Source of the DNA: Aureimonas sp. AU12
Lineage (GTDB): Bacteria; Pseudomonadota; Alphaproteobacteria; Rhizobiales; Rhizobiaceae
Assembly (NCBI RefSeq): GCF_001463705.1
Contig: NZ_BBWH01000028.1
Coordinates: forward strand, 62,001 to 126,000
DNA length: 64,000 nucleotides
Direction of reading: 5' to 3'
Shown: positions 50,124 to 64,000 of the stretch, in pieces
Layout: every line of letters starts with the position of its first letter
How positions within the stretch are numbered: position 1 is the stretch's first letter
Translations under genes and position numbers: made by a program
Notes under the pieces: generated by a model
Told to the model about the DNA's origin: nothing
Database searches by the model: none
Seen by the model: only the letters and a program-made list of their open reading frames with translations

Positions 50124-50537
50124 TCACCGGCGAAAGGCCGTCGCCTCGATCTCGACCTTCATCTCCGGCCGGATCAGACCGGCGACGATCATGGTGGCGG
50201 CCGGGCGGATTTCGCCGAACCAGCGCCCGGTCACCGCGAACACGGCGTCCTGGAACGCGGCGTCCGTGATGATGTACCGAACGCGCACCACGTCGCTCAT
50301 CGCGAAACCGGCCTCGCGCAGCGCCGCCTCGATCGTTCGAAGCGCGCTCTCGGCCTGCTCGCCGACATCGTCCGGCATGGTCATCGCCGCGTAGTCGTAG
50401 CCCGTGGTGCCCGAGACGAAGCACCAGGGGCCGTCGGCGACGGCGCGCGAATAGCCCGCCTGCCGCTCGAAGGGCGAACCGGTGGAGACGAGCCGGCGTC
50501 CCGCGCAGGCCTGCGGGTCCTCCGTCCCGGCCGTCAT
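50124..50537 (-). CDS. RidA-family protein (YjgF/YER057c)
   Basis: A 137-residue trimeric enamine/imine deaminase family member. It has VADGPWCFVSGTTGYD, the helix EQAESALRTIEAALREAGF, VVRVRYIITD and the C-terminal KVEIEATAFRR. The conserved Arg of true RidA is best matched by R in VVRVRYIITD, so activity on 2-aminoacrylate is possible but unproven. It starts 4 bp after the leuD stop and is surely cotranscribed with it. RidA is known to protect PLP enzymes, including the branched-chain aminotransferase. Confidence 0.84.
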   Translation of the reverse strand: MTAGTEDPQACAGRRLVSTGSPFERQAGYSRAVADGPWCFVSGTTGYDYAAMTMPDDVGEQAESALRTIEAALREAGFAMSDVVRVRYIITDAAFQDAVFAVTGRWFGEIRPAATMIVAGLIRPEMKVEIEATAFRR

Positions 50538-50541
50538 CCGG

Positions 50542-51147
50542 TTAGGCCCAGGGACGCTCAACGGCGAGCTTCTGCTCGAAGGTCGTGATGTCGCCCTCGC
50601 GCTCCAGCGTCAGGCCGATATCGTCGAGCCCATTGAGGAGGCAATGCTTGCGGAACGGGTCCATCTCGAAGGCGATCGTGCCGCCATCGGGGCGGCGGAT
50701 TTCCTGCGCGGCGAGATCCACCGAGAGCGTCGCGTTCGCGCCCTTCTCGGCATCGCCCATCAGGGCGTCGAGTTCGGCTTGGGTCACGCGGATCGGCAGG
50801 ATACCGTTCTTGAAGCAGTTGTTGTAGAAGATGTCGGCGAACGAGGTCGAGATCACGCAGCGGATGCCGAAGTCGAGAAGCGCCCAGGGCGCATGCTCGC
50901 GCGAGGAGCCGCAGCCGAAATTGTCGCCGACGACGAGGATTTCCGCCTTGCGGTAGGCCGAGCGGTTGAGCACGAAGCTCTCGTTCTCCGACCCGTCCTC
51001 GCGGTAGCGCAGGTTCGCGAAGAGGCCGACGCCGAGGCCTGTGCGCTTGATCGTCTTCAGGTAGTCCTTCGGGATGATCATGTCGGTGTCGACATTCATC
51101 GTGGGCAGCGGCGCGGCGACGCCGGTCAGGTGATCGAACTTCTGCAT
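50542..51147 (-). CDS. leuD: 3-isopropylmalate dehydratase small subunit
   Basis: Isopropylmalate isomerase small subunit of leucine synthesis, 201 residues. It contains [16 protein letters not shown], the swivel-domain signature [21 protein letters not shown] (shown in part at about 74-90) and [22 protein letters not shown] precedes ATG 51147. The large subunit LeuC, which holds the Fe-S cluster, is not in the window. Confidence 0.95.
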
Positions 51148-53251: not shown

Positions 53252-53674
53252 TCAGTCGGCGGCGGCTTCCAGCGCTTCCATGTCGTCGTCCGACAAGCCG
53301 AAATGGTGGCCGATCTCGTGGATCAGCACGTGGCCGACCAGCGTGCCCAGGCTTTCCTCGTGCTCGGCCCAATAGTCGAGGATCGGCCGGCGATAGAGCA
53401 GGATGCGGTTCGGCATCTCGCCGGTGACGGGGGTGCCGAGCGCGCCCACCGCGCGCCCCTCGAACAGGCCGAGAATGTCGAACTGGCTCTCCAGTCCCAT
53501 TTCCTCGATCACGTCCTCCTCGGGAAAGTCGGCGACACAAAACCGGATCTCGCCCGACAACGCCCGGAACTCGGCCGGTAGCGCCGCATAGGCTTCGAGC
53601 GCGAGCGATTCGAGTTCTTCGAGGCTCGGCGCGAGCCGGCGGCCCCAGTCGCTCGTCTGATCCAACTGTCCCAT
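53252..53674 (-). CDS. Zincin-like metallopeptidase family protein (DUF1025/PF06262)
   Basis: A 140-residue acidic protein with the minimal zincin active site H119-E120-x-x-H123, followed by HFGLSDDDM, the third-ligand Asp region. It also has ILGLFEGRAVG and MPNRILLYRRPILDYW, characteristic of this family of compact metallopeptidases. Substrates are unknown. ATG 53674 gives family length; it is convergent with the DUF2459 gene, with 7 bp between stops. Confidence 0.85.
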   Translation of the reverse strand: MGQLDQTSDWGRRLAPSLEELESLALEAYAALPAEFRALSGEIRFCVADFPEEDVIEEMGLESQFDILGLFEGRAVGALGTPVTGEMPNRILLYRRPILDYWAEHEESLGTLVGHVLIHEIGHHFGLSDDDMEALEAAAD

Positions 53675-53845
53675 GCGGTCCCCGTGACGAATGCGCGGGC
53701 TCGCACTGGAGCCCGCGCCGATCCTGTTGCCACAAGTTCGGCCGGCGGGCGAAAATTTCAACGCCCGCGTGGTGAAGCAGGCCTCGCCGTCACACCTTGC
53801 CCGCGAGGCGCGATGGCGCGGCTCGTCCGTCCGCCGTCCCGCGCG

Positions 53846-56428
53846 TCAGCTGCGCGGGTTGAGGTTCTCGGGATCGTAGAGCGCCCGCGAGCCCACCGCC
53901 GCGACCTCCACCGGATAACGCTCGCCGAAATACTCGATCTCGAGCGCCCGGCCGAGGATGGCATGATCCGCCGGCAGATAGGCCAGCGCGATGGTGCGCC
54001 CGATCGACGGTCCGTAGGCGATCGAGGTGGTGAAGGAGCGTCGTCCCAGCGCATCGACCAGCGTCTCGCCCGTCGCCGGGTCGAGCACCGGCAGGATGCC
54101 GACGGGATAGCGCGCGACGCCGTTGCGGTCGGTATTCCCCGTCATCACGAGGGTGCAGAGCGTCGCGGGCTGGCGCTCGCGGGCGCGATATTCGAGATGG
54201 CGGGCCTTGCCGCGGAAATCGGCGTCTTTCACCTTCGGGCGCGCGAGATCCGCCTCGTAGAGATTGTACTCGGTCAGGAGATCGGCGTTCTGCAGGCGCA
54301 GGCTCTTCTCCATGCGCCGCGAGTTGGCATAGGTCTCGATGCCCACCGGCACCGCCCCGGTCGAGGCCAGCGCGTCCCAGACCGCGAGGCCGTCCGCATA
54401 GGGCACGTGCAGCTCGAAACCCTGCTCGCCGACATAGGAGATGCGGAAGGCGAGGACGTCGACGCCCGCGATCCGCACAGGCTTCAGCGCCGCGAAGGGG
54501 AAGGCCGCGGCCTCCAGCGCGGCCGGGTCCTCGACGATCCCCTGCAGCTTGGCGCGCGCGTTCGGGCCCCAGATGCCGACCGTGACGAGGTCGCTCGTGC
54601 GGTCCTCGATCGTCACATCGAGGCCGCGCTCGCGGGCGACCTCAGTGATGTAGTGGAAGTCGCGCGGTGCGGCGTCCGCGCCGTCGACGACGCGCAGGCG
54701 GTCGGCGAGGCGCAGCACCGTCAGGTCGGAGCGCACCATGCCCTCGTCGTCGAGGAAGTGCGTGTAGATGCCCTTGTCGATATTGGCGTCGCCCCCGATC
54801 CGCGCCGCGCAGAGCCATTCGAGCAGGGCGACGTGGTCGGGGCCGGAAACTTCGAGGATGGCGAAGTGCGAGAGGTTGATGATGCCGGCATCCTCGCTCA
54901 TGGCGAGTTGCTCGGCGTTCGACACCCGCCAGAAATGGCGCGCGTCCCACTCGTTCTCGCGCACCGGGATGCGGTCGCCGTATTTTTCGAGCAGCGGTGC
55001 GTTCGCGGCGTAGCCGTGGGCGCGCTCCCAGCCGCCGAGCTCCATGAAGTGGCCGCCGAGCGCGACTTCGCGCGCGTGGAAGGGCGAGCGGCGCACGTCG
55101 CGTCCGAGCGAGAAGGGCTCGCGCGGATGCACGGCGGGGTTGTAGATCTTCTTCGCCGTCTCGGTGCAGCGCTCGAAGATCATCTCCTCGGTGAGCTGGT
55201 GCGGATAGAAGCGCGCGACGTCGATCGCGTGATGGTCGATCTGCGTGCGCCCGTCGGTCATCCAGTCGGCGATGAGCTTGCCGTAGGCCGGCCCGTCCTT
55301 CACCCAGATCGCCACGCAGTACCACAGGCCCTTCACCTTGCGGCTTTCGCCGCAGGAGGGGCCGCCGTCCGAGGTCACCTGCAGCAGGCCGTTGAAGGAA
55401 TGGCTCTCGTTGTAGCCGAGCTCGCCGAGGATCGGCGTCAGCTCGATGGCGCGCTCCAGCGGCTCAAGGATCTGCTCCATGTCGAGGTCGCGCTGCGAGG
55501 GCGAGAGCCGCGCCTCGCGCTTGGAGAGGATGTCGCGGGGGTGGCAGAGGCGGGGATCGTTCTCCTCGTAGTAGCCCCACTCGATCTGCCCGCCCTCGGC
55601 GGTGGTCGGGTCGCCGGTGTCGCGCATGTAGGCGGAATTGCCCTGGTCGCGCATCAGCGGATAGCCGATCTCCTTGCCGGTGCCCGCGAACTCGTTGTAG
55701 GGCCCGAAGAAGGTCAGCGGGTGGTCCACCGGCATGACCGGCAGGTCCTCGCCGGCCATCTCGGCGATCAGCCGGCCCCAGATGCCGGCGCAGACCACGA
55801 CGTGCTCGGCCATGATCGTGCCGCGCGGGGTAACGACGCCGGCGATGCGGCCGTTCTCGATGACCAGCGAGTGCGCGGCCGTGTTGGCGAAGGCCCGGAG
55901 CTTGCCGGCGGCCTCGCCCTGGTCGACGAGCTTGCCGGCGACGGTCTGCGATCGCGGGATGACGAGCCCGGCATCGGGATCCCACAGACCGCCCTGGACC
56001 TGGTCCTCCTCGATGAGCGGGAATTTTTCCTTGATCTCGGCGGGCTCGATCAGGCGGACCCGCGTGCCGAACGCCTTGCCCGAGGAGACCTTGCGCCGGA
56101 TCTCGTCCATCCGCGCATCGTCCCCGACGCGCGCCACCTCGAGCCCGCCGACGCGCGCGTAGTGACCCATCTTCTCGAAGAAATCGATGGAGTAGAGCGT
56201 CGTCCAGCACGAGAGGAAGTCGTGGCTGGTCGTGTAGCAGAAGTCGGAGGCATGCGCCGTCGAGCCGACGTCGGTGGGGATGCCGCTCGCGTCGATGCCG
56301 ACGATGTCGTCCCAGCCGCGCTCGATCAGGTGGTGGGCGACCGAGGCGCCGACGATCCCGCCGAGCCCGATGATGACGACGTTCGCTTTGGTGGGAAACC
56401 CGGACAAGTCTGCTGCTCCGATTGCCAT
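53846..56428 (-). CDS. FAD-dependent dehydrogenase with GcvT domain (dimethylglycine/sarcosine dehydrogenase-like)
   Basis: An 860-residue two-module flavoenzyme. Residues 1-450 are a DAO-type FAD domain with VIIGLGGIVGASVAHHL (18-34) and GSTAHASDF (55-63); H59 matches the histidine that binds FAD covalently in dimethylglycine dehydrogenase, while the usual Trp before it is Ala. Residues about 470-860 are the GcvT tetrahydrofolate-binding domain (ILEVSGPDHVALLEWLC, ISYVGEQGFELHVP). Such enzymes oxidise N-methyl or similar amines and pass formaldehyde to folate. It is the last gene of the minus-strand cluster, 107 bp after an SDR gene. Substrate unknown. Confidence 0.85.
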   Translation of the reverse strand: MAIGAADLSGFPTKANVVIIGLGGIVGASVAHHLIERGWDDIVGIDASGIPTDVGSTAHASDFCYTTSHDFLSCWTTLYSIDFFEKMGHYARVGGLEVARVGDDARMDEIRRKVSSGKAFGTRVRLIEPAEIKEKFPLIEEDQVQGGLWDPDAGLVIPRSQTVAGKLVDQGEAAGKLRAFANTAAHSLVIENGRIAGVVTPRGTIMAEHVVVCAGIWGRLIAEMAGEDLPVMPVDHPLTFFGPYNEFAGTGKEIGYPLMRDQGNSAYMRDTGDPTTAEGGQIEWGYYEENDPRLCHPRDILSKREARLSPSQRDLDMEQILEPLERAIELTPILGELGYNESHSFNGLLQVTSDGGPSCGESRKVKGLWYCVAIWVKDGPAYGKLIADWMTDGRTQIDHHAIDVARFYPHQLTEEMIFERCTETAKKIYNPAVHPREPFSLGRDVRRSPFHAREVALGGHFMELGGWERAHGYAANAPLLEKYGDRIPVRENEWDARHFWRVSNAEQLAMSEDAGIINLSHFAILEVSGPDHVALLEWLCAARIGGDANIDKGIYTHFLDDEGMVRSDLTVLRLADRLRVVDGADAAPRDFHYITEVARERGLDVTIEDRTSDLVTVGIWGPNARAKLQGIVEDPAALEAAAFPFAALKPVRIAGVDVLAFRISYVGEQGFELHVPYADGLAVWDALASTGAVPVGIETYANSRRMEKSLRLQNADLLTEYNLYEADLARPKVKDADFRGKARHLEYRARERQPATLCTLVMTGNTDRNGVARYPVGILPVLDPATGETLVDALGRRSFTTSIAYGPSIGRTIALAYLPADHAILGRALEIEYFGERYPVEVAAVGSRALYDPENLNPRS

Positions 56429-56535
56429 TCGGGCGCCAGCATAGGCGGGGCGCGGCGCCGATGCAGTCCTATTTCCGACATAGGACGGTTTCGTCGCGAC
56501 CCAATGCGACGTGCGGCATCGCGCCCGACGCCCCG

Positions 56536-57372
56536 TCAGGCGCAGCGCGAGGAGAGCCCGCCATCGACCACGAGAAGTTGGCCGGTGATGTAGCGCGCCT
56601 CGTCGCTGGCGAGGAACACGGCGGCGTTGGCGACGTCCCATGCGTCGCCGGCAAAGCCCATCGGGCAGAGCGCGGCGCGCTCGCGCCGGGCCGCCTCGAT
56701 GTCGCCGCCGAAGCGGGCGCCGAGCTGGTTGTGGACGAGCGGCGTGTCGAGGATGCCGGGCACCACGGCATTGGCGCGGATGCCGTTGGCGGCGTGTTCG
56801 AGCGCGATCGAACTCGTCAGCTGGTTGAGCGCCGCCTTCGAGGCGGCATAGCCGGCATAGGTGATGCCGCAATAGCGCAGCGAGCCGACGGTGGAGATGT
56901 TGGTGACGACGCCGCCGCGTGGCTGGGCGCGCATCTGGCGGATGGCGAGCCGGCAGGCGATGAAGGGCGCGGTGACGTTGAGCGCGAAGGCGCGCGCCCA
57001 GGTCTCGTCGCTCATCTCGGCGGTGGGCGCGACCTCGGCGATCCCCGCATTGTTGTGGAGGACGTCGATCGCGCCGAAGGCGTCGAGCGCGTGCGCGAAG
57101 ACGGTTTCGACGGCTTGGCCGTCGGTGGCGGAGGCGGCCAGCGGCAGGGCGCGCACGCCCGCACCCTCGCAGAGCCGGGCGGTCTCCTGCGCCCGCTCCT
57201 TCACGAGATCCACCACCACGAGGTCGGCCCCGGCCAGCGCATAGGCAACGGCCGCCGCCTGTCCGTTGCTCCAGCCGGGGCCGGACGTGCCGGCGCCGAA
57301 CACGAGCACCGTGCGCCCGGCCAGCCGGCGCGAGGGGGCGGGGGCATGCGCGGGAAGCGCGAGCGCGCTCAT
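56536..57372 (-). CDS. Short-chain dehydrogenase/reductase with atypical cofactor motif
   Basis: A 278-residue SDR. The cofactor loop is FGAGTSGPGWSNG (about 25-37), longer than the classical TGxxxGIG, and resembles a subgroup found with catabolic clusters. HNNAG, ISTVGS and the Y-A-A-S-K catalytic pair are present, and the C-terminus has YITGQLLVVDGG. Its start overlaps the hydrolase stop by 4 bp. Probably oxidises a hydroxy or hydroxyacyl intermediate of the pathway. Confidence 0.83.
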   Translation of the reverse strand: MSALALPAHAPAPSRRLAGRTVLVFGAGTSGPGWSNGQAAAVAYALAGADLVVVDLVKERAQETARLCEGAGVRALPLAASATDGQAVETVFAHALDAFGAIDVLHNNAGIAEVAPTAEMSDETWARAFALNVTAPFIACRLAIRQMRAQPRGGVVTNISTVGSLRYCGITYAGYAASKAALNQLTSSIALEHAANGIRANAVVPGILDTPLVHNQLGARFGGDIEAARRERAALCPMGFAGDAWDVANAAVFLASDEARYITGQLLVVDGGLSSRCA

Positions 57373-58232
57373 GGCGCGGCCTCGATCACCGGGGCGGGCG
57401 CGTCGAGGAAGCGAGCGAGAACGGCGTTGAAGGCGGCCGGCGCTTCGAGGAACGGGAAATGCGCGCCGCCCTCGGCCTCCTCGAAGACCACGAGCTGCGA
57501 GCCGGGGATCTGGCGATGGATCCAGTCCTGCGAGCGCGGGTTCACGTGGCTGACGCGCCCGCCGATTACGAGGGTCGGCCGATCGACGCGCGCGAAGAGG
57601 TCCCGCCAGTCGATCGCGCAGTGATTGACGAAGAGCGAGGCGATATCGGCGGGATCGGCGCGTAGATTGATCCGGAGGAGGACGTCGCGGAGATCGTGGG
57701 GAATGCCCTTGGTGATCATCGCGTCGAGAAAGCCCTCGCGCGCCGCGTGGCCCTCTGCGCTTGCGATCTGCCGGGCCACGGCCAGCATGGTCTCGCCGTC
57801 GAACAGCGCGCCGGCGTCGAGGGCATCTTCGTCGCTCATGCCGACCTGCCGCATCACGGAGGCCGGCTCGTCGACGAAGACGAGGCGGTCGAGCCGCGCC
57901 GTGCCGTAGAGGTCGATGAAGGCCCAGAGCACCGAATTGCCCATCGAGGAGCCCAGGACGCTCGCGCGCTCGACCCCGGCATGGTCGAGGAACTCGGCGA
58001 GATCGGCCGCGAAGCGGTAGATGCGATGGCCGCGCGCCGCATCGGGCGAAGCGCCATGACCGCGAAAGTCGAGGGCAAGGACGCGGTGCGTCCTGGAAAA
58101 CTCGGCGATCTGGTGCCGGAACATCTCGGCCGACTGCGACCAGCCGTGCAGCAGCACGAGCGCCGCGCCGTCGCCCTCCTCGACATAGGACAGATCGGCC
58201 CCGTCGGAGGTGATGAAGGATCGGGTCGCCAT
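57369..58232 (-). CDS. Alpha/beta-fold hydrolase
   Basis: A 287-residue hydrolase resembling enol-lactonases and carboxylesterases. LVLLHGWSQSAEMFR holds the oxyanion region, the nucleophile elbow is LGSSMGN (S96), and the catalytic His is in GGAHFPFLEAP near the C-terminus. An in-frame upstream ATG (58295) would add a Pro/His-rich stretch; ATG 58232 is preferred. Stop overlaps the next SDR start. A lactone, ester or CoA thioester substrate is inferred from the neighbours. Confidence 0.82.
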   Translation of the reverse strand: MATRSFITSDGADLSYVEEGDGAALVLLHGWSQSAEMFRHQIAEFSRTHRVLALDFRGHGASPDAARGHRIYRFAADLAEFLDHAGVERASVLGSSMGNSVLWAFIDLYGTARLDRLVFVDEPASVMRQVGMSDEDALDAGALFDGETMLAVARQIASAEGHAAREGFLDAMITKGIPHDLRDVLLRINLRADPADIASLFVNHCAIDWRDLFARVDRPTLVIGGRVSHVNPRSQDWIHRQIPGSQLVVFEEAEGGAHFPFLEAPAAFNAVLARFLDAPAPVIEAAP

Positions 58233-58250
58233 CGCGGGGTTCCTTGCGCC

Positions 58251-58282
58251 GTGCGGTTTGAGGGGGGCGTCGTGCGGTTTGA
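58251..58282. repeat. Short direct repeat upstream of the hydrolase gene
   Basis: GTGCGGTTTGA occurs twice (58251-58261 and 58272-58282), 21 bp apart, in the only sizeable gap (about 80 bp) between coupled genes of this cluster. Confidence 0.5.
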
Positions 58283-58311
58283 AGGGGATGGTCAAGCCGA
58301 AGGCGCCCGGT

Positions 58312-59064
58312 TCAGGCCATCAGGCCGGCGGCGGTGAAGCCGCCGTCGACCGCGAGGATCTGGCCGGTGACGTAGGAGGCGCGGGCCTCGTCGCAGAGGA
58401 AGGCGACGGCCTCGGCAATCTCCTCGGGCGTGCCGTAGCGGCGCATCGGCACGGTGCGGTGCCACTCCTCGCGCGTCGCGGCGGTGTGCGCCTCGCGCAC
58501 CATCGGCGTCTCGATCGGGCCGGGCGCCACGGCGTTGACGCGGATGCGCTCACTGGCGAGTTCCACCGCCATGATCTTCGTCAGCGTGACGAGCGCGCCC
58601 TTCGAGGCGCCGTAGGCCGAGCGGCCGAGATTGCCCTTGATGCCGGAAACGGAGGCGATGTGGACGATGGCGCCGCCGCCGGCCGCCGTCATCACCGGCG
58701 CCAGCGCCTGACTGAGCGCGAAGGCGCCGACGACGTTGACCTCGTAGAGCCGGCGCATCTGTTCGGCCGTCGTGTCGAAGAAACGCGCGTTGGCGGGAAT
58801 GCCGGCGCAGTTGACGAGGCCGCGTAGCGGCACGGGCGCCTGCGCACAGGTCTCGGCCAGCGCCGCGATGCCGGATGCGTCGGTCACGTCGAGGGTCCGC
58901 GTCGTGAGCTTCGCGCCTGCGTCGTGCTGCCCGGCGGAGCGCGCGAGGGCCTCGCCCTCGCGGTCCACGGCGACGACGTGCCAGCCGTCGCGCAGGAGCC
59001 GGCCGACCGTCGCGAGGCCGATGCCGGAGGCCGCTCCCGTGACGACGATGCTGCGAGCGCTCAT
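58312..59064 (-). CDS. Short-chain dehydrogenase/reductase (FabG-like)
   Basis: Classical SDR, 250 residues. It has VVTGAASGIGLATV (7-20), VNCAGIP in place of NNAG, the Ser in HIASVSG, and SAYGASKGAL with the Y-x-x-x-K pair, then VTGQILAVDGG. The look is that of 3-hydroxyacyl-CoA or alcohol dehydrogenases. The start overlaps the PCC-protein stop (ATGA). In the pathway it probably oxidises a hydroxyl group before thiolysis. Confidence 0.86.
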   Translation of the reverse strand: MSARSIVVTGAASGIGLATVGRLLRDGWHVVAVDREGEALARSAGQHDAGAKLTTRTLDVTDASGIAALAETCAQAPVPLRGLVNCAGIPANARFFDTTAEQMRRLYEVNVVGAFALSQALAPVMTAAGGGAIVHIASVSGIKGNLGRSAYGASKGALVTLTKIMAVELASERIRVNAVAPGPIETPMVREAHTAATREEWHRTVPMRRYGTPEEIAEAVAFLCDEARASYVTGQILAVDGGFTAAGLMA

Positions 59065-59918
59065 GCCGGTTCCTCCTCATGCGCCGCGATCACCAGTTCG
59101 AAGGTGACGCCGACGGGGTTGTCGCCGTGCCGCAGCCGCCCGCGCGACACCGCACCGGCGATGTCGACGGCCGCGACGTCGAGCCGGACGGACCCGGCCG
59201 CGAGCGTCCCCGTCTCGATGGCGATTTCGGTGGCGAGGCAGCGCACCGCCGCGCCGTCCTCGAAGACGATCTCGTTGATGCTGCCGATGCCGTGGACCGT
59301 GCCGTTTCGAAGGCCGGCCTGCGCCGCCGCCGTCTCGATGGCGGTGCAGACGTCCTCGTTCGGCCGCAGCCGCAGGAAGAGGCCGTGCCGGCCCGTCGCC
59401 GGGCCTGGAGACCCGGCGAACTCGCGCGGCGAGAACAGGGTGAAGGCCGTCTCCGCGTCGGCCACCGCCTCGAACCCGGCATCGGGCGAGGCGAGGCCGC
59501 GCACCACGACACGCTCGGCGACCCGGCATTCCAGCGGCAGCATGTGGCCCATGCGCGGGGCACCCTCGCCGGTGTCCCAAAGCCCGTGGCAATGCAGGAA
59601 GGGCGCGCCGTCGCGCATGCCGACGATGGCGGTGGCCCGCAGGCGCTTGGCCCCGTCCGGCGGCGCGATCGTTTCGCTGTACCAGGCGGCGTGCAGCCCG
59701 TCGGTGGAGAGGGCCGGCAGCACGTAGCGGAACGGCTCGCAGCGCCCGCCCTCGAGATGGAGGACGCCGCCCCGGCAGCCGGCCTCGTCGAGGATGCGCG
59801 CCACCTCGTCCATGACGAGGGCGCCGGGCCGCAGCTCGCCCGCGATGCTCTTCAGCCGCGTCGCGATGGCTTCGCGCCGGGGCTCGGCCGGCGGGCCGGG
59901 ATGGGCGAGGCGCCGCAT
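59061..59918 (-). CDS. Tandem PCC/PPC (DUF296) domain protein
   Basis: A 285-residue protein built from two PPC-like halves. The first (about 15-165) has FRYVLPALSTDG, APFLHCHGLWDT and MGHMLPLECRVAERV, matching the HxHxxL and GGHL-type strand of DUF296. The second (about 180-280) has DVCTAIETAAAQAG, NGTVHGIGSINEIVFEDG and FELVIA, again PPC-like. Plant and bacterial PPC domains form trimers, and some are thought to bind DNA or small ligands. Here the position between a CoA ligase and an SDR argues for an enzyme or acyl-CoA-binding role. It starts 1 nt after the ligase stop. Confidence 0.68.
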   Translation of the reverse strand: MRRLAHPGPPAEPRREAIATRLKSIAGELRPGALVMDEVARILDEAGCRGGVLHLEGGRCEPFRYVLPALSTDGLHAAWYSETIAPPDGAKRLRATAIVGMRDGAPFLHCHGLWDTGEGAPRMGHMLPLECRVAERVVVRGLASPDAGFEAVADAETAFTLFSPREFAGSPGPATGRHGLFLRLRPNEDVCTAIETAAAQAGLRNGTVHGIGSINEIVFEDGAAVRCLATEIAIETGTLAAGSVRLDVAAVDIAGAVSRGRLRHGDNPVGVTFELVIAAHEEEPA

Positions 59919-59919
59919 C

Positions 59920-61581
59920 TCAGGCGCTCCGGCGCAGCGTGGCGTCGCCGGGCGGCGGCGTCAGGTCGCCGCGCCGCTCCAGCTCCTCGCGGACCATTTT
60001 TTTCGTGATCTTGCCATAGGCCGATTTCGGCAGCGCCTCCCAGAAGACGAAGCGCCTGGGGAGCTTGTAGCGCGCCATCCGCCCGTCGAGATGGGCCGCC
60101 AGCTCGGCCTCCGTGACGCTCATCCCGGCGCGCACCACGCAGACGGCGACCCCGACCTCGCCCCAGAGCGGATCGGGCATGCCCAGAACCGCCACTTCGT
60201 CGATCGCCGGATGCGTGAGGATCTTCTCCTCGATCTCGCGGGGATAGACGTTGGAGCCGCCGGAGATGAACATGTCGGAGGCGCGGCCGGTGATGAAGAG
60301 GAAGCCGGCCTCGTCGAGATGGCCGAGATCGCCGGTGCGGAACCAGCCGTTGCGGAAGGCCTTCGCGTTGGCCTCCGGGTTGTCGTAATAGCCGGGAAAG
60401 ACCGCCGGTCCGGCGCAGCAGATCTCGCCGGTCTCGTTCGGCCCCACGGGCTCGCCGGCCTCGTCCTGCACCTCCACCGCGATGCCGGTGCGCGCCACCC
60501 CGCAGGTGCCGGCCCGCACACCTTCGCCGTCCTCGGCCGAATGCAGCGCCGCGCCGAGCACGGTGATGGCGCCCGTCACCTCGCCGAGGCCGAAATATTG
60601 CGTGATCACGGGGCCGAGCACGCGCAGCGCCCGCTTCTGGTCCTCGCGATACATCGGCGCGCCCGCATAGATGACGTAGCGCAGCGACGAATGATCGTGG
60701 CGCCCGACTGCGGGATGCTCGACCATGAGCTTGAGGATGGTCGGCACGGTGAAGAGGGTGGAGACCCGCCAGCGCTCGACGAGGGCCCAGGCCGCTTCGA
60801 TGTCGAAGCGCTCGGTCGGCAGCAGGATCGTCTTCACGCCCTTGGCGACCTGCGTCAGCTGGTGGACGCCGGCCCCGTGCGACAGCGGCGCGACGACGAG
60901 CGCGGCGTCCTCGCCGGAGAGGCCCGGCATCAGGTCGCAGAGATGGTTGTTGACCACGAAGGCCATCTGCCCGTGCGTCAGCACGGCGGCCTTCGGCCGG
61001 CCGGTGGTTCCGGAGGTGAAGAAGAACCAGCAGGGATCGTCGCGGTTCACCGCGGCTTCCGGCACCTGCCGCCCGAGATGCTCATCGACGAGGTCGTCGT
61101 AGGCGGGGCCGAACGGGGCCTCGCCGATGGCGATCGTAAAGCCGATGGCGGGGGTCGCGCGCAGCACCGCCGCGGCATGGTCGGGGAAGGCGGCGTTGCA
61201 GATGAGGCCGGTGGCGCCCGAGGCCTTGGCGAGATAGGCGACCTCGTCCGGCGTCTGCCGGAAGTTGGTGGGCACCCAGACCGCGCCGATGCGAAAGCAC
61301 GCGAACATCGATTCGAACATCTGGTTGCAGTTCTGCGACTGCACGAGGATGCGGTCGCCCTTCGCGACGCCGAAGCGCTCCGTCAGCGCCGTCGCCATCG
61401 CGTCAATGCGCGCCTCCATCTCGGCCCAGCTCCAGATCGCCTCGCCCCAGACGAGCGCGATTCCGGCGGGATCGCGGCGGGCGGCCTGCGTGACGAAGCG
61501 CGCGAGATTCATCACCCGCGTTGAGACCGGCGGCAGGCCGCCGCGCGGGGTCTCGGGCGCGGTCGAGCCGGTCCCGCTCAT
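59920..61581 (-). CDS. AMP-forming acyl-CoA synthetase
   Basis: Acid:CoA ligase, 553 residues. Motifs are the P-loop FFFTSGTTGRPKAAVLTH (about 186-203), QYFGLGEVTGAI (about 328), WFRTGDLGHLDEAG (about 416), the hinge ITGRASDMFISGGSNVYP (about 432) and the terminal lysine in KSAYGKITKK. It should activate the imported acid. The substrate pocket gives no clear hint. The start overlaps the thiolase stop (ATGA), so the two are translationally coupled. Confidence 0.9.
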   Translation of the reverse strand: MSGTGSTAPETPRGGLPPVSTRVMNLARFVTQAARRDPAGIALVWGEAIWSWAEMEARIDAMATALTERFGVAKGDRILVQSQNCNQMFESMFACFRIGAVWVPTNFRQTPDEVAYLAKASGATGLICNAAFPDHAAAVLRATPAIGFTIAIGEAPFGPAYDDLVDEHLGRQVPEAAVNRDDPCWFFFTSGTTGRPKAAVLTHGQMAFVVNNHLCDLMPGLSGEDAALVVAPLSHGAGVHQLTQVAKGVKTILLPTERFDIEAAWALVERWRVSTLFTVPTILKLMVEHPAVGRHDHSSLRYVIYAGAPMYREDQKRALRVLGPVITQYFGLGEVTGAITVLGAALHSAEDGEGVRAGTCGVARTGIAVEVQDEAGEPVGPNETGEICCAGPAVFPGYYDNPEANAKAFRNGWFRTGDLGHLDEAGFLFITGRASDMFISGGSNVYPREIEEKILTHPAIDEVAVLGMPDPLWGEVGVAVCVVRAGMSVTEAELAAHLDGRMARYKLPRRFVFWEALPKSAYGKITKKMVREELERRGDLTPPPGDATLRRSA

Positions 61582-62747
61582 TTGGCGCGCTCCAGGATCG
61601 AGACGTAGTTGGCGACGGCGGCGCCGCCCATGTTGAAGACGCCGGCGAGCGAGGCACCGGGCAGCTGCATCTCGCCGGCTTCGCCGCAGAGCTGCATCGC
61701 CGCCATCACATGCATCGAGACGCCGGTGGCGCCGATCGGATGGCCCTTCGACTTCAGCCCGCCCGAGAGGTTCACCGGCAGCCGGCCGCCGCGCTGCGTC
61801 GTGCCCTCGCGCACCACGCGGTAGCCCTCGCCCGGCGCGGCGAGGCCCATCGCCTCGTATTCGATGAGCTCGGCAATGGTGAAGCAGTCATGCGTCTCGA
61901 CGAGGTCGAGATCATCGAGCTGGAGGCCGGCGCTCTCCAGCGCACCGCTCCAGGCGCGGCGGGCGCCCTCGAAGGCGATGGGGTCGCGCCGCGACAGGGC
62001 GAGCACGTCGTTGACCTGCCGCCGCGCGCGGAAGGCGACGGCGCGCGACAGGCCGGCGGCGGTCTCGGCGTCGGCCAGCACCAGCGCGGCGGCGCCGTCC
62101 GAGATCAACGAACAGTCGGTGCGCCGCAGGGGCGCGGCGACGAGCGGGTTCTTCTCCGACACGGTGTCGCAGAACTCGACCGAGAAATTCTTGCGCATGT
62201 GGGCGTAAGGGTTGGCGAGCCCGTTGTGGTGGTTCTTGGCCGCGATCATCGCCAGCTCATGCGAGCGGTCGCCGTGGCGCTGGAAGTAGTTGGCGGCGAT
62301 GCGGCCGAAGAGGCCCGCGAAGCCCCCGGCGACGTCCGCCTCCTCTTCGCGGAAGGAGGCCGAGAGGAGGATGTCGCCGGCCTCCGCCGTCGGTACGCCC
62401 GTCATCTTCTCGGCGCCCACCACGAGCGCGATCCGGCCGCGCCCGGCGGCGATGAAGTCCATCGCGGTGTTGATCGCCGCCGACCCGGTGGAACAGGCAT
62501 TTTCCAGCCGCACGGCGGGCACGTGGTCGAGACCCTCGCAGGCCATGCCGACGAGGGCGCCCTGGAAGTCCTGACGCGAGAAGCCGTTGTTGTAGACGCC
62601 GACGAAAATGCCATCGACGTCGCCGGCCGAGACCCCGGCATGGTCGAGCGCGGGGCCCACGACCTCCGCCATCAGCTCGCGCGTCGAGGGCGCCTCCGAC
62701 TTGCCGAACTTCGAATGGGCCCAGCCGACGATCTGCGGATCTGCCAT
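61578..62747 (-). CDS. SCP-x type thiolase / acetyl-CoA acetyltransferase
   Basis: Thiolase-fold enzyme, 389 residues. The nucleophile C85 lies in LENACSTGSAA; ETHDCFTIAE and GGLKSKGHPIGATG carry the catalytic His residues. The HDCF motif and ending NMGGAAVANYV mark the SCP-x branch, which cleaves 3-oxoacyl-CoA with branched or cyclic groups and often works with a DUF35 OB-fold protein. No DUF35 gene is seen here. AGGA in GAGGACACC precedes ATG 62747. The reaction direction in this cluster is presumably degradative. Confidence 0.88.
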   Translation of the reverse strand: MADPQIVGWAHSKFGKSEAPSTRELMAEVVGPALDHAGVSAGDVDGIFVGVYNNGFSRQDFQGALVGMACEGLDHVPAVRLENACSTGSAAINTAMDFIAAGRGRIALVVGAEKMTGVPTAEAGDILLSASFREEEADVAGGFAGLFGRIAANYFQRHGDRSHELAMIAAKNHHNGLANPYAHMRKNFSVEFCDTVSEKNPLVAAPLRRTDCSLISDGAAALVLADAETAAGLSRAVAFRARRQVNDVLALSRRDPIAFEGARRAWSGALESAGLQLDDLDLVETHDCFTIAELIEYEAMGLAAPGEGYRVVREGTTQRGGRLPVNLSGGLKSKGHPIGATGVSMHVMAAMQLCGEAGEMQLPGASLAGVFNMGGAAVANYVSILERAK

Positions 62748-62757
62748 GGTGTCCTCC

Positions 62758-63660
62758 TCAAGTCTTCGGCCGCTTCGGCCGGATGGGGGCGGGCGCGGCA
62801 TCGGCGTCGCCCTGCGGCGCGCCGGCCTCGGCCCGGAAGAGGCGGTCCAGCCTCGTTTCGATCTCGGCGGCCTCTCTGGCCAGCAGCGCGGCGAGGTCGC
62901 GGCGGCGGTCCTCGCCCATGCGGCCGTCGATCGCCGCCAGAGACAGGGCCCCGGCCAGCCGCCCGCCGGGAAAGCGCAGGGCGCAGCCGATGCCCCAGGA
63001 ATTGGCGAGGACACGGCCGGGATTGAACGCATGGCCGGCCTCACGGGTGAGGCTGACGTCCCGCGCGACGATCTCCGGCGTGTAGCCGGGATAGCGCGCC
63101 GCCAGCACCGGGGCGATGCGCGCCAAGACGGCCTCGACCTCGGCGTCCGTCAGCGCCGCCAGCATGGCCAGCGACCCCGCGCCGACGCCGAGCGGGTGCT
63201 GGTCGCCGGCCTGCAGCGCGTGGGTGCGGATCGGATAGCCGCCTTCCTCGCGATGCAGGCAGACGGCGAAATCGTCGCGCCGCATCGACAGGAAGGCGGT
63301 GTCAGCCGAGGCGGCGGCGAGCCGTCTCAGGCTCTCGCCGGCGATTTCGAGGAGCCCGTGGCGGCGCGAGGCGATCTGGCCGAGCACGTAGAGCTCGGAT
63401 CCCAGGTGATAGCGCCGCGTCGTCTCGTCCTGCTCGACCATGCGGGCCGAGATCAGCGCCACGAGCAGCCGGCGCGCGGTGGGCTTGTTCAGCCCGCTTG
63501 CCGCCACCGCCTCGCTCAGCGCCAGCCCGCGCTCGCCGCTGCCGCCGACGAGGGAGAGGAGCCGGAAGGCCCGCTCCACCGCCTGCGCGCCCGACGCGCC
63601 GGGCAGAGCGTTGCCCAGACTGGCGCCGAGGCCGGCCAGCGTCGTCACCGGATGCTCCAC
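62758..63660 (-). CDS. IclR-family transcriptional regulator
   Basis: A 300-residue regulator. The winged helix (about 25-85) has AVERAFRLLSLVGG, LALSEAVAASGLNKPTARRLLVAL (in parts) and TRRYHLGSELYVLG. The IclR effector domain follows, with GGYPIRTHALQAGDQHPLGVGAGSLAML and SWGIGCALRFPGG. It lies within the operon, 10 bp before the thiolase, and probably controls it in response to the substrate or an intermediate. IclR proteins commonly regulate aromatic or carboxylate catabolism. Confidence 0.91.
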   Translation of the reverse strand: MEHPVTTLAGLGASLGNALPGASGAQAVERAFRLLSLVGGSGERGLALSEAVAASGLNKPTARRLLVALISARMVEQDETTRRYHLGSELYVLGQIASRRHGLLEIAGESLRRLAAASADTAFLSMRRDDFAVCLHREEGGYPIRTHALQAGDQHPLGVGAGSLAMLAALTDAEVEAVLARIAPVLAARYPGYTPEIVARDVSLTREAGHAFNPGRVLANSWGIGCALRFPGGRLAGALSLAAIDGRMGEDRRRDLAALLAREAAEIETRLDRLFRAEAGAPQGDADAAPAPIRPKRPKT

Positions 63661-63687
63661 TCGCGCGGCTCCCGCCCGTGGTCCGCC

Positions 63688-64000
63688 TCAGCCGAGCGCG
63701 TGGCCGGCCGAGGTTTCGAGGATCTTCCAGGCCTCGTCGCCGTACTTGCCCTTCCACTCGGCATAGAAGCCGGCACTCGACAGCTTCTCGCGGAAGGGCG
63801 CGGGATCGGGCGCGTTGAAGGCCATGCCGTTGCCCTCCAGCATCCCCTGGAGCGACTGGTTCAGCGCCATCACGTCGGCCCGTTGCAGCAGGGCGGCGGC
63901 GTTGAAGTTGCGCGAGACGATCTCCTGGCAATCCTCCGGCAGCGCCGCCCAGGCCCGCCGGTTGGCGAGGATCCAGAACCCGTCCCACATGTGGTTCGTC
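63688..64000 (-). CDS. TRAP transporter solute-binding protein DctP-type (3' part, cut by window edge)
   Basis: The last 104 codons of a periplasmic TRAP binding protein; the gene continues past the right edge. The segment TNHMWDGFWILANRRAW, followed by LPEDCQEIVSRNFNAAA, is typical of the C-terminal lobe of DctP proteins. The chain ends EAWKILETSAGHALG. TRAP carriers import carboxylates with Na+ or H+; DctQ and DctM genes are expected outside the window. It precedes iclR by 27 bp, so the transporter and pathway appear to form one unit. Confidence 0.82.
   Translation of the reverse strand, partial: TNHMWDGFWILANRRAWAALPEDCQEIVSRNFNAAALLQRADVMALNQSLQGMLEGNGMAFNAPDPAPFREKLSSAGFYAEWKGKYGDEAWKILETSAGHALG

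Follow-up and report, generated by a model that had tools for sequence, protein, structure and literature searches.

The present analysis concerns the last part of a 64,000-nucleotide stretch of the Aureimonas sp. AU12 genome (contig NZ_BBWH01000028.1, positions 62,001 to 126,000), referred to as the window. Positions 53846-64000 of the window carry nine successive genes on the minus strand. In the order of transcription they encode the solute-binding protein DctP of a tripartite ATP-independent periplasmic (TRAP) transporter, an IclR-family regulator, an SCP-x type thiolase, a coenzyme A (CoA) ligase, a tandem PCC (DUF296) protein, a short-chain dehydrogenase/reductase (SDR1), an alpha/beta hydrolase, a second dehydrogenase of this kind (SDR2) and a flavoenzyme. 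The families and positions are those named in a first-pass annotation of the region, and the eight complete genes were found to have open reading frames with proper stops. The DctP gene is cut by the window edge; it is complete on the same contig beyond the window, with a TRAP permease gene upstream of it. The core formed by the TRAP, IclR, SCP-x thiolase, PRK07470 ligase, tandem PCC and SDR genes is, as judged from sequence, an uncharacterised catabolic module found mainly in Alphaproteobacteria.

Four ATGA overlaps had been counted in the first-pass annotation; three exact ones are present, at 61578-61581 (thiolase/ligase), 59061-59064 (PCC/SDR1) and 57369-57372 (hydrolase/SDR2). The tight packing it described is seen in the core, where CoA ligase and PCC are separated by 1 bp, IclR and thiolase by 10 bp and DctP and IclR by 27 bp. 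Between SDR1 and the hydrolase the gap is 16 bp with the TTG start and 79 bp with the ATG start, and the packing is lost at the flavoenzyme, whose first ATG fitting homology lies 107 bp past the SDR2 stop. From the gene spacing, the genes from 56536 to beyond 64000 probably form one operon, which is probably controlled by the IclR regulator. Coordinates of all features are collected in Table 1.

Table 1. Features of the cluster and its surroundings (window positions, except where a position in locus L005 is given).
Feature	Coordinates	Strand	Remarks
TRAP solute-binding protein DctP, C-terminal part	63688..64000	-	whole gene L005 11189-12208
TRAP permease gene, outside window	L005 12280 to about 14154		upstream of DctP; DctQM-type judged by length; orthologues annotated 'TRAP transporter large permease subunit'
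IclR-family regulator	62758..63660	-	start GTG; Pfam HTH_IclR + IclR_C
SCP-x type thiolase, 389 aa	61578..62747	-	NF005704/PRK07516; 649 bits, cut-off 412
Acyl-CoA synthetase (CoA ligase)	59920..61581	-	NF005676/PRK07470; 944 bits, cut-off 774
Tandem PCC (DUF296) protein	59061..59918	-	HxH...GH motif H109/H111/H125; Pfam, alignment, model
SDR1	58312..59064	-	Pfam/NCBIfam families; ATGA overlap with PCC stop
Alpha/beta hydrolase	57369..58232	-	start ATG 58232 or TTG 58295; Pfam/NCBIfam families; rare accessory gene
SDR2	56536..57372	-	Pfam/NCBIfam families; ATGA overlap with hydrolase stop
Upstream element TGTCGGAAATAGG, degenerate copy of TGTCGCAAACAGG	56468..56480	-	likely separate promoter/operator for flavoenzyme
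Flavoenzyme, DAO + FAO_M + GCV_T, dimethylglycine oxidase/dehydrogenase superfamily	53846..56428	-	probably not part of the module

Conservation of the core genes across genomes

The module was defined as a tandem PCC gene together with a PRK07470-type ligase gene, the combination present in the window. Loci were anchored on PCC because it is the rarer part of the cluster, and genes were called with fixed bit-score thresholds. A genome contig scan supplied 33 loci; others came from plasmid records, from relatives and from searches across the class and with DctP. The tandem set comprised 70 loci, window included; 11 of these were fetched via DctP and kept for carrying PCC, and the other nine of the 20 DctP-anchored regions were left out. 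Two duplicates were dropped (L127, the same contig stretch as L033, and L131, the same as L019). L133, with a broken-up PCC, was moved to the split set. The tandem set retained L166, which is annotated as two genes, and both L011 and L070, whose PCC DNA is identical. The stretches covered extend at most about 9-14 kb to each side.

In a comparison of gene order, which the first-pass annotation had suggested as a check, the core recurred, and the hydrolase and flavoenzyme did not go with it. The CoA ligase was found in 68 of the 70 loci, at least one SDR in 56, IclR in 53, DctP in 51, DctQM in 50 and the thiolase in 48, the hydrolase being present in two and the flavoenzyme in one, the window itself. 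As the loci were selected by PCC, its own presence in all 70 carries no information, and the other counts do. Species in the set are not independent, with Paracoccus over-represented, and the counts are lowered where contig ends truncate a locus. In 61/70 loci the ligase and PCC genes share a strand and are no more than 1 kb apart, and the distance between their aligned stretches is often below 50 bp. Since it recurs in many genomes, the grouping of the core genes is beyond chance, and the hydrolase, on the same sequence comparison, is a rare extra to the module.

Most of the loci belong to Alphaproteobacteria, the exceptions being L034 from a gammaproteobacterial bin and L036 from the actinobacterium Enemella. 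Annotated clusters include those of Paracoccus denitrificans PD1222, Haematobacter, Sinorhizobium meliloti pSymB and an Agrobacterium plasmid. The Chelatococcus cluster lacks the thiolase, and the Alloyangia and Sulfitobacter clusters have a different TRAP system on the opposite strand. Among 101 relatives, own genome included, PCC matched in 14 (only half of it in G066) and the thiolase, at E 1e-60, in 48, showing that the thiolase also occurs outside the module; such solo thiolases have mixed neighbour genes. The highest PCC identity in the contig scan was 59%, in Aureimonas glaciei, in a list from which near relatives may be missing.

A class-wide profile search of 385 genomes gave a PCC match in 18. 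In 13 genomes of this search, the two halves of PCC were matched separately, side by side. Eleven of these 13 were fetched and, with L133, make up a split set of 12 loci, in which the ligase was present in all 12 and the thiolase in 11. The association is thus not tied to the fused form of PCC. Eleven N-terminal split proteins keep HCH...GH and D-x-E-T, without the HAAWYS stretch. No paper on the cluster was found in the open-licence PMC literature, in agreement with the first-pass annotation, in which no named pathway with this exact set was recognised.

Two plasmids showed PCC genes in other surroundings. In Agrobacterium tumefaciens CFBP5877 (L161 9909-10869), two single-PCC genes directly follow the tandem-PCC cluster, on the opposite strand and adjacent to an Lrp-type regulator gene. 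In Skermanella mucosa (L160 9001-9840), the tandem PCC gene has plasmid partition genes as neighbours, and the stretch covered contains no ligase.

The tandem PCC protein

The protein belongs to the PCC/DUF296 family, with a PF03479 score of 46.2 bits at a cut-off of 25, and 37 of 39 aligned members matched PF03479 at E 5. Its description as a tandem in the first-pass annotation agrees both with Pfam, which resolves PCC into two stretches at a permissive threshold and one stretch at E 0.001, and with the AlphaFold model (mean pLDDT 94), which is composed of two similar halves. In the alignment of these 39 sequences, taken out of 44 full-length ones, P7, G8, P68, A78, S81, G100, H109, H111, W114, G124, E156, T157, F159, E231, T272 and E274 are invariant, among others, and H76, W79, Y80 and H125 nearly so.

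A Foldseek search against PDB ranked PPC proteins first (2h6l, named 'metal-containing protein', 2dt4, 3hwu and others), with eight rows below E 0.001 and AF0104 as the best match. The likeness to AF0104 and PH0802 (PPC/PCC, DUF296) consists of the fold of one PCC half (TMt 0.73-0.74) and the HxH...GH motif; the window protein differs from them in its two fused domains, its further invariant residues and a C-terminal half in which no His is invariant. The spacing of H109, H111 and H125 is that of His 85/87/101 in the DUF296 protein LmiA, which according to PMC7667037 seem to make up a zinc site. With its conserved three-His motif, the tandem PCC protein is probably a metalloenzyme; its likeliest role is that of a metal-dependent enzyme acting beside the ligase, and not that of a DNA-binding protein.

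Proposed pathway and substrate of the module

The thiolase possesses the catalytic residues C84, H285-D-C287-F and H335 (numbered without the first Met), and C84, HDCF and H335 are conserved in 95% or more of the thiolases in an alignment of 35 from clusters, solo thiolases left out. These residues and a score above the curated cut-off place it among the PRK07516 SCP-x thiolases, with which it shares the C, HDCF and GHPxGATG motifs and whose model names no function. SCP-x thiolases in other systems accept 2-branched 3-oxoacyl-CoAs. A DUF35 partner was not found by Pfam among the cluster genes of the window, the rest of the genome not having been searched for one. SDR1 scored 203 bits against the butanediol dehydrogenase model BudC, whose cut-off is 270, and many other SDR models come close behind; this score is therefore at most a hint. 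The best NCBIfam model for the IclR regulator was BhcR, with 86 bits and a cut-off of 350. VceA/VceB were considered as a precedent for a ligase-thiolase pair and did not fit, VceB being called a thioesterase in PMC11837543.

The PDB chain closest to DctP is 4oan, RPB_2686 of Rhodopseudomonas palustris HaA2 (466 bits), with 67% identity in an alignment of the DctP model, which is of moderate confidence (pLDDT 79). The segments IWDNGFRQ, KIRVPVSPLWTSMF, GQENPLAI and NHMWDGFW are common to both receptors. The imported acid may resemble 2-acetolactate, which is listed among the ligands from the EFI TRAP survey in the review PMC5812351. A DctP search of 397 genomes of the order gave a match at E 1e-60 in 56, from which 20 regions were fetched. 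In both contexts, with and without PCC, a CoA ligase accompanies this type of receptor. Where the receptor is of the type nearest to 4OAN, it makes up a unit of three genes with DctQM and an acyl-CoA synthetase of a different family; this unit (L251-L254, L267), which occurs in another family of the order, is perhaps a second CoA-linked route for a related ligand.

Families, gene order, conservation and motifs are read from the sequence, and from them we infer every reaction, the step order, the control and the substrate. Import, SDR oxidation, CoA activation and thiolysis of an acid, as the first-pass annotation had outlined, follow from the gene families and are backed by the conserved core. 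With about even confidence, the operon can be read as serving the uptake and breakdown of a short oxygenated (hydroxy and/or oxo) monocarboxylic acid, with an acetolactate-like acid as its specific version. The TRAP system would import the acid, one or two SDRs would oxidise a hydroxyl to a ketone, the PRK07470 ligase would form the CoA ester and the SCP-x thiolase would cleave it to acetyl-CoA and a shorter acyl-CoA, with the PCC protein as a metalloenzyme of the route. In loci without the thiolase, cleavage would need a thiolase coded elsewhere or the PCC protein itself. In the specific version, the acid would be a 2-hydroxy-2-alkyl-3-oxo acid or its 3-hydroxy form, and for a skeleton of the acetolactate type, 2-hydroxy-2-methyl-3-oxobutanoyl-CoA would be split by thiolysis into acetyl-CoA and lactoyl-CoA. 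The PCC protein would act on that carbon skeleton like its possible fold neighbour acetolactate decarboxylase; metal-assisted decarboxylation, ketol rearrangement and thioester hydrolysis are the candidate steps. The full proposal makes the tandem PCC protein a catalytic metalloenzyme of two domains and a distant member of the fold group of acetolactate decarboxylase. Its substrate would be a 2-hydroxy-3-oxo acid or the CoA ester of one, on a conserved route by which ligase and SCP-x thiolase convert such acids to acetyl-CoA and 2-hydroxyacyl-CoA. This proposal is tentative and on present evidence rather doubtful.

Several observations weigh against the acetolactate-like reading, or against parts of it. 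Within the stretches covered, the thiolase was not found in 22/70 loci, which rules it out as an indispensable part of the module, and the ligase was not found in two (L035, L160); in at least one of the loci without a thiolase, L152, the stretch begins at the ligase, and an upstream thiolase could not show there. The acetolactate part has thin support. The title of 4OAN reportedly names density modelled as (S)-2-acetolactate. PCC was present in only 11 of the 20 DctP-anchored regions, and the receptors that are 81-87% like 4OAN (five regions, L251-L254 and L267) have a different ligase family alongside, PRK08162 in the two regions scanned, and no PCC.

Any relation of the PCC protein to acetolactate decarboxylase would also be distant. 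In SCOP, PPC proteins of the AF0104 type share a fold group with acetolactate decarboxylase. The decarboxylase structures 4bt2 and 4bt3 appeared as Foldseek rows 27 and 30, a weak match (probability 0.72-0.75, E 0.08-0.11, TM 0.23-0.29). Besides this fold match, the likeness consists of an HxH...GGH motif, compared with HxH...GH in PCC, and such a motif is also common to PPC proteins; the His spacing is 2+11 in the decarboxylase and 2+14 in PCC. Profile comparison by hhalign gave a probability of 0.25%, with a decarboxylase side of only five sequences from six genomic PF03306 matches (L220 dropped), and PDB profile searches from PCC and from the decarboxylase found no link in either direction. 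PF03306 was not among the families matched by the 39 PCC members, nor was a match to it found in the window's own genome. Membership of the PCC protein in the acetolactate decarboxylase family was rejected as unproved, there being neither a PF03306 match nor profile similarity.

The substrate could be another CoA-activated acid, such as an aromatic, alicyclic or medium-chain hydroxy acid, which seems possible and somewhat improbable. No enzyme of the cluster exceeds the cut-off of a substrate-specific named NCBIfam model, the ligase and SDR families are broad, the best model of the hydrolase is the enol-lactonase PcaD, far below its cut-off, and phenylacetate genes are found at a distance of about 5 kb from the cluster of Paracoccus denitrificans. 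Against such an acid, Pfam found no acyl-CoA dehydrogenase or enoyl-CoA hydratase in the cluster of the window, and the receptor is related to 4oan, whose ligand is reportedly a C5 compound. A short-chain fatty acid transporter gene comes next to the Enemella cluster, which fits a short acid as substrate and is the sole hint from the neighbours of distant clusters.

With the same module, the PCC protein could work with IclR as a DNA-binding or effector-sensing regulator and not as an enzyme, which we regard as improbable. The family includes several PDB entries with the name putative DNA-binding protein, and LmiA, the DUF296 protein with the same His motif, is described as an E. coli virulence regulator in PMC7667037. 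This speaks against the enzymatic reading, and the motif alone does not decide between enzyme and regulator. However, an IclR gene is already present in 53/70 loci, the PCC gene tracks the CoA ligase gene at close distance, and many invariant polar residues lie beyond the His motif. A metal-dependent enzyme next to the ligase is preferred.

The flavoenzyme gene and the meaning of the module

The last gene was placed in the dimethylglycine oxidase/dehydrogenase superfamily by its Pfam domains DAO, FAO_M, GCV_T and GCV_T_C. Its alignment with dimethylglycine oxidase (1PJ5; 345 bits) covers the full length and includes GSTxH, the active-site His and Tyr and the folate-site Asp; the FAD-linking His of the superfamily is present as well. 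GSTxH is kept in all 28 orthologues checked, window included; of the stricter strings, P.DH..TF is kept in 26, YMR.TGD in 21 and RSDLTV in one, so that the last is not a family feature as written. The protein scored below the cut-off of all 16 listed NCBIfam models, including those for soxA, GcvT, trimethylamine N-oxide demethylase and syringate demethylase. It differs from dimethylglycine oxidase in forming a distinct orthologous group, with at least 69% identity within the 101 relatives and at most 35% in the next matches listed. The group is uncurated and well separated, and matches at E 1e-100 occur in 151 plasmid records, 126 of them from Rhizobium.

Orthologues of the flavoenzyme occur in other surroundings. 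A soxA-family gene lies within the same 19-kb stretch in 7/13 fetched regions (window excluded) and a purU gene in 3/13; among representative neighbours scanned, soxA, soxB and PurU exceeded their cut-offs, and soxG and GbdR-like regulators fell below. On plasmids of S. meliloti, P. aminovorans and R. etli the gene is solitary, without sox or purU neighbours. On pSymB of S. meliloti Ak57, a distance of about 0.9 Mb separates the PCC cluster from the flavoenzyme, and in the same-genus draft genome G007 the two are on different contigs. The window's own genome carries soxA on a contig other than that of the window. The element TGTCGCAAACAGG was found within two mismatches in 15/29 upstream regions, window included, with about 0.02 expected per region and 17 matches in all in 309,060 positions of those loci; it was picked by eye from 14 of these loci, and the enrichment figure is therefore not an independent test. 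The other 14 regions fail the two-mismatch limit, including those of the two closest orthologues, L041 and L042, with three mismatches. The element likely marks a separate promoter or operator of the flavoenzyme.

Because it occurs in one of 70 PCC loci, has orthologues that are solitary or near sox genes and carries its own upstream element, the flavoenzyme is probably a separate gene and an unrelated neighbour of the module. Removal of an N-methyl-type group as a step of the pathway, which the first-pass annotation had proposed, was rejected on the same grounds. A single nine-gene pathway ending in oxidative folate-dependent N-demethylation is highly improbable in view of this evidence and of the separate contigs in G007, even though the flavoenzyme is next in order on the same strand and the 107-bp gap, in which an uninformative consensus scan found no terminator-like or sigma-70-like site, could be read through. 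On the downstream side of the region, an L-PSP-type gene (50127-50561) and a zincin-like metallopeptidase gene (53255-53761) both look ordinary.

DUF296/PCC proteins are commonly annotated as DNA-binding, and a prokaryotic member is not known to have an enzymatic role. The pairing of PCC with the CoA ligase in 68/70 loci gives DUF296 a direct and testable enzymatic context. If the proposed reading is true, a carbon source could be named for Alphaproteobacteria that live in soil, associate with plants or denitrify, among them the laboratory organisms Sinorhizobium meliloti and Paracoccus denitrificans, and catalysis in a catabolic pathway would be a role that no other PCC/DUF296 protein is known to have.

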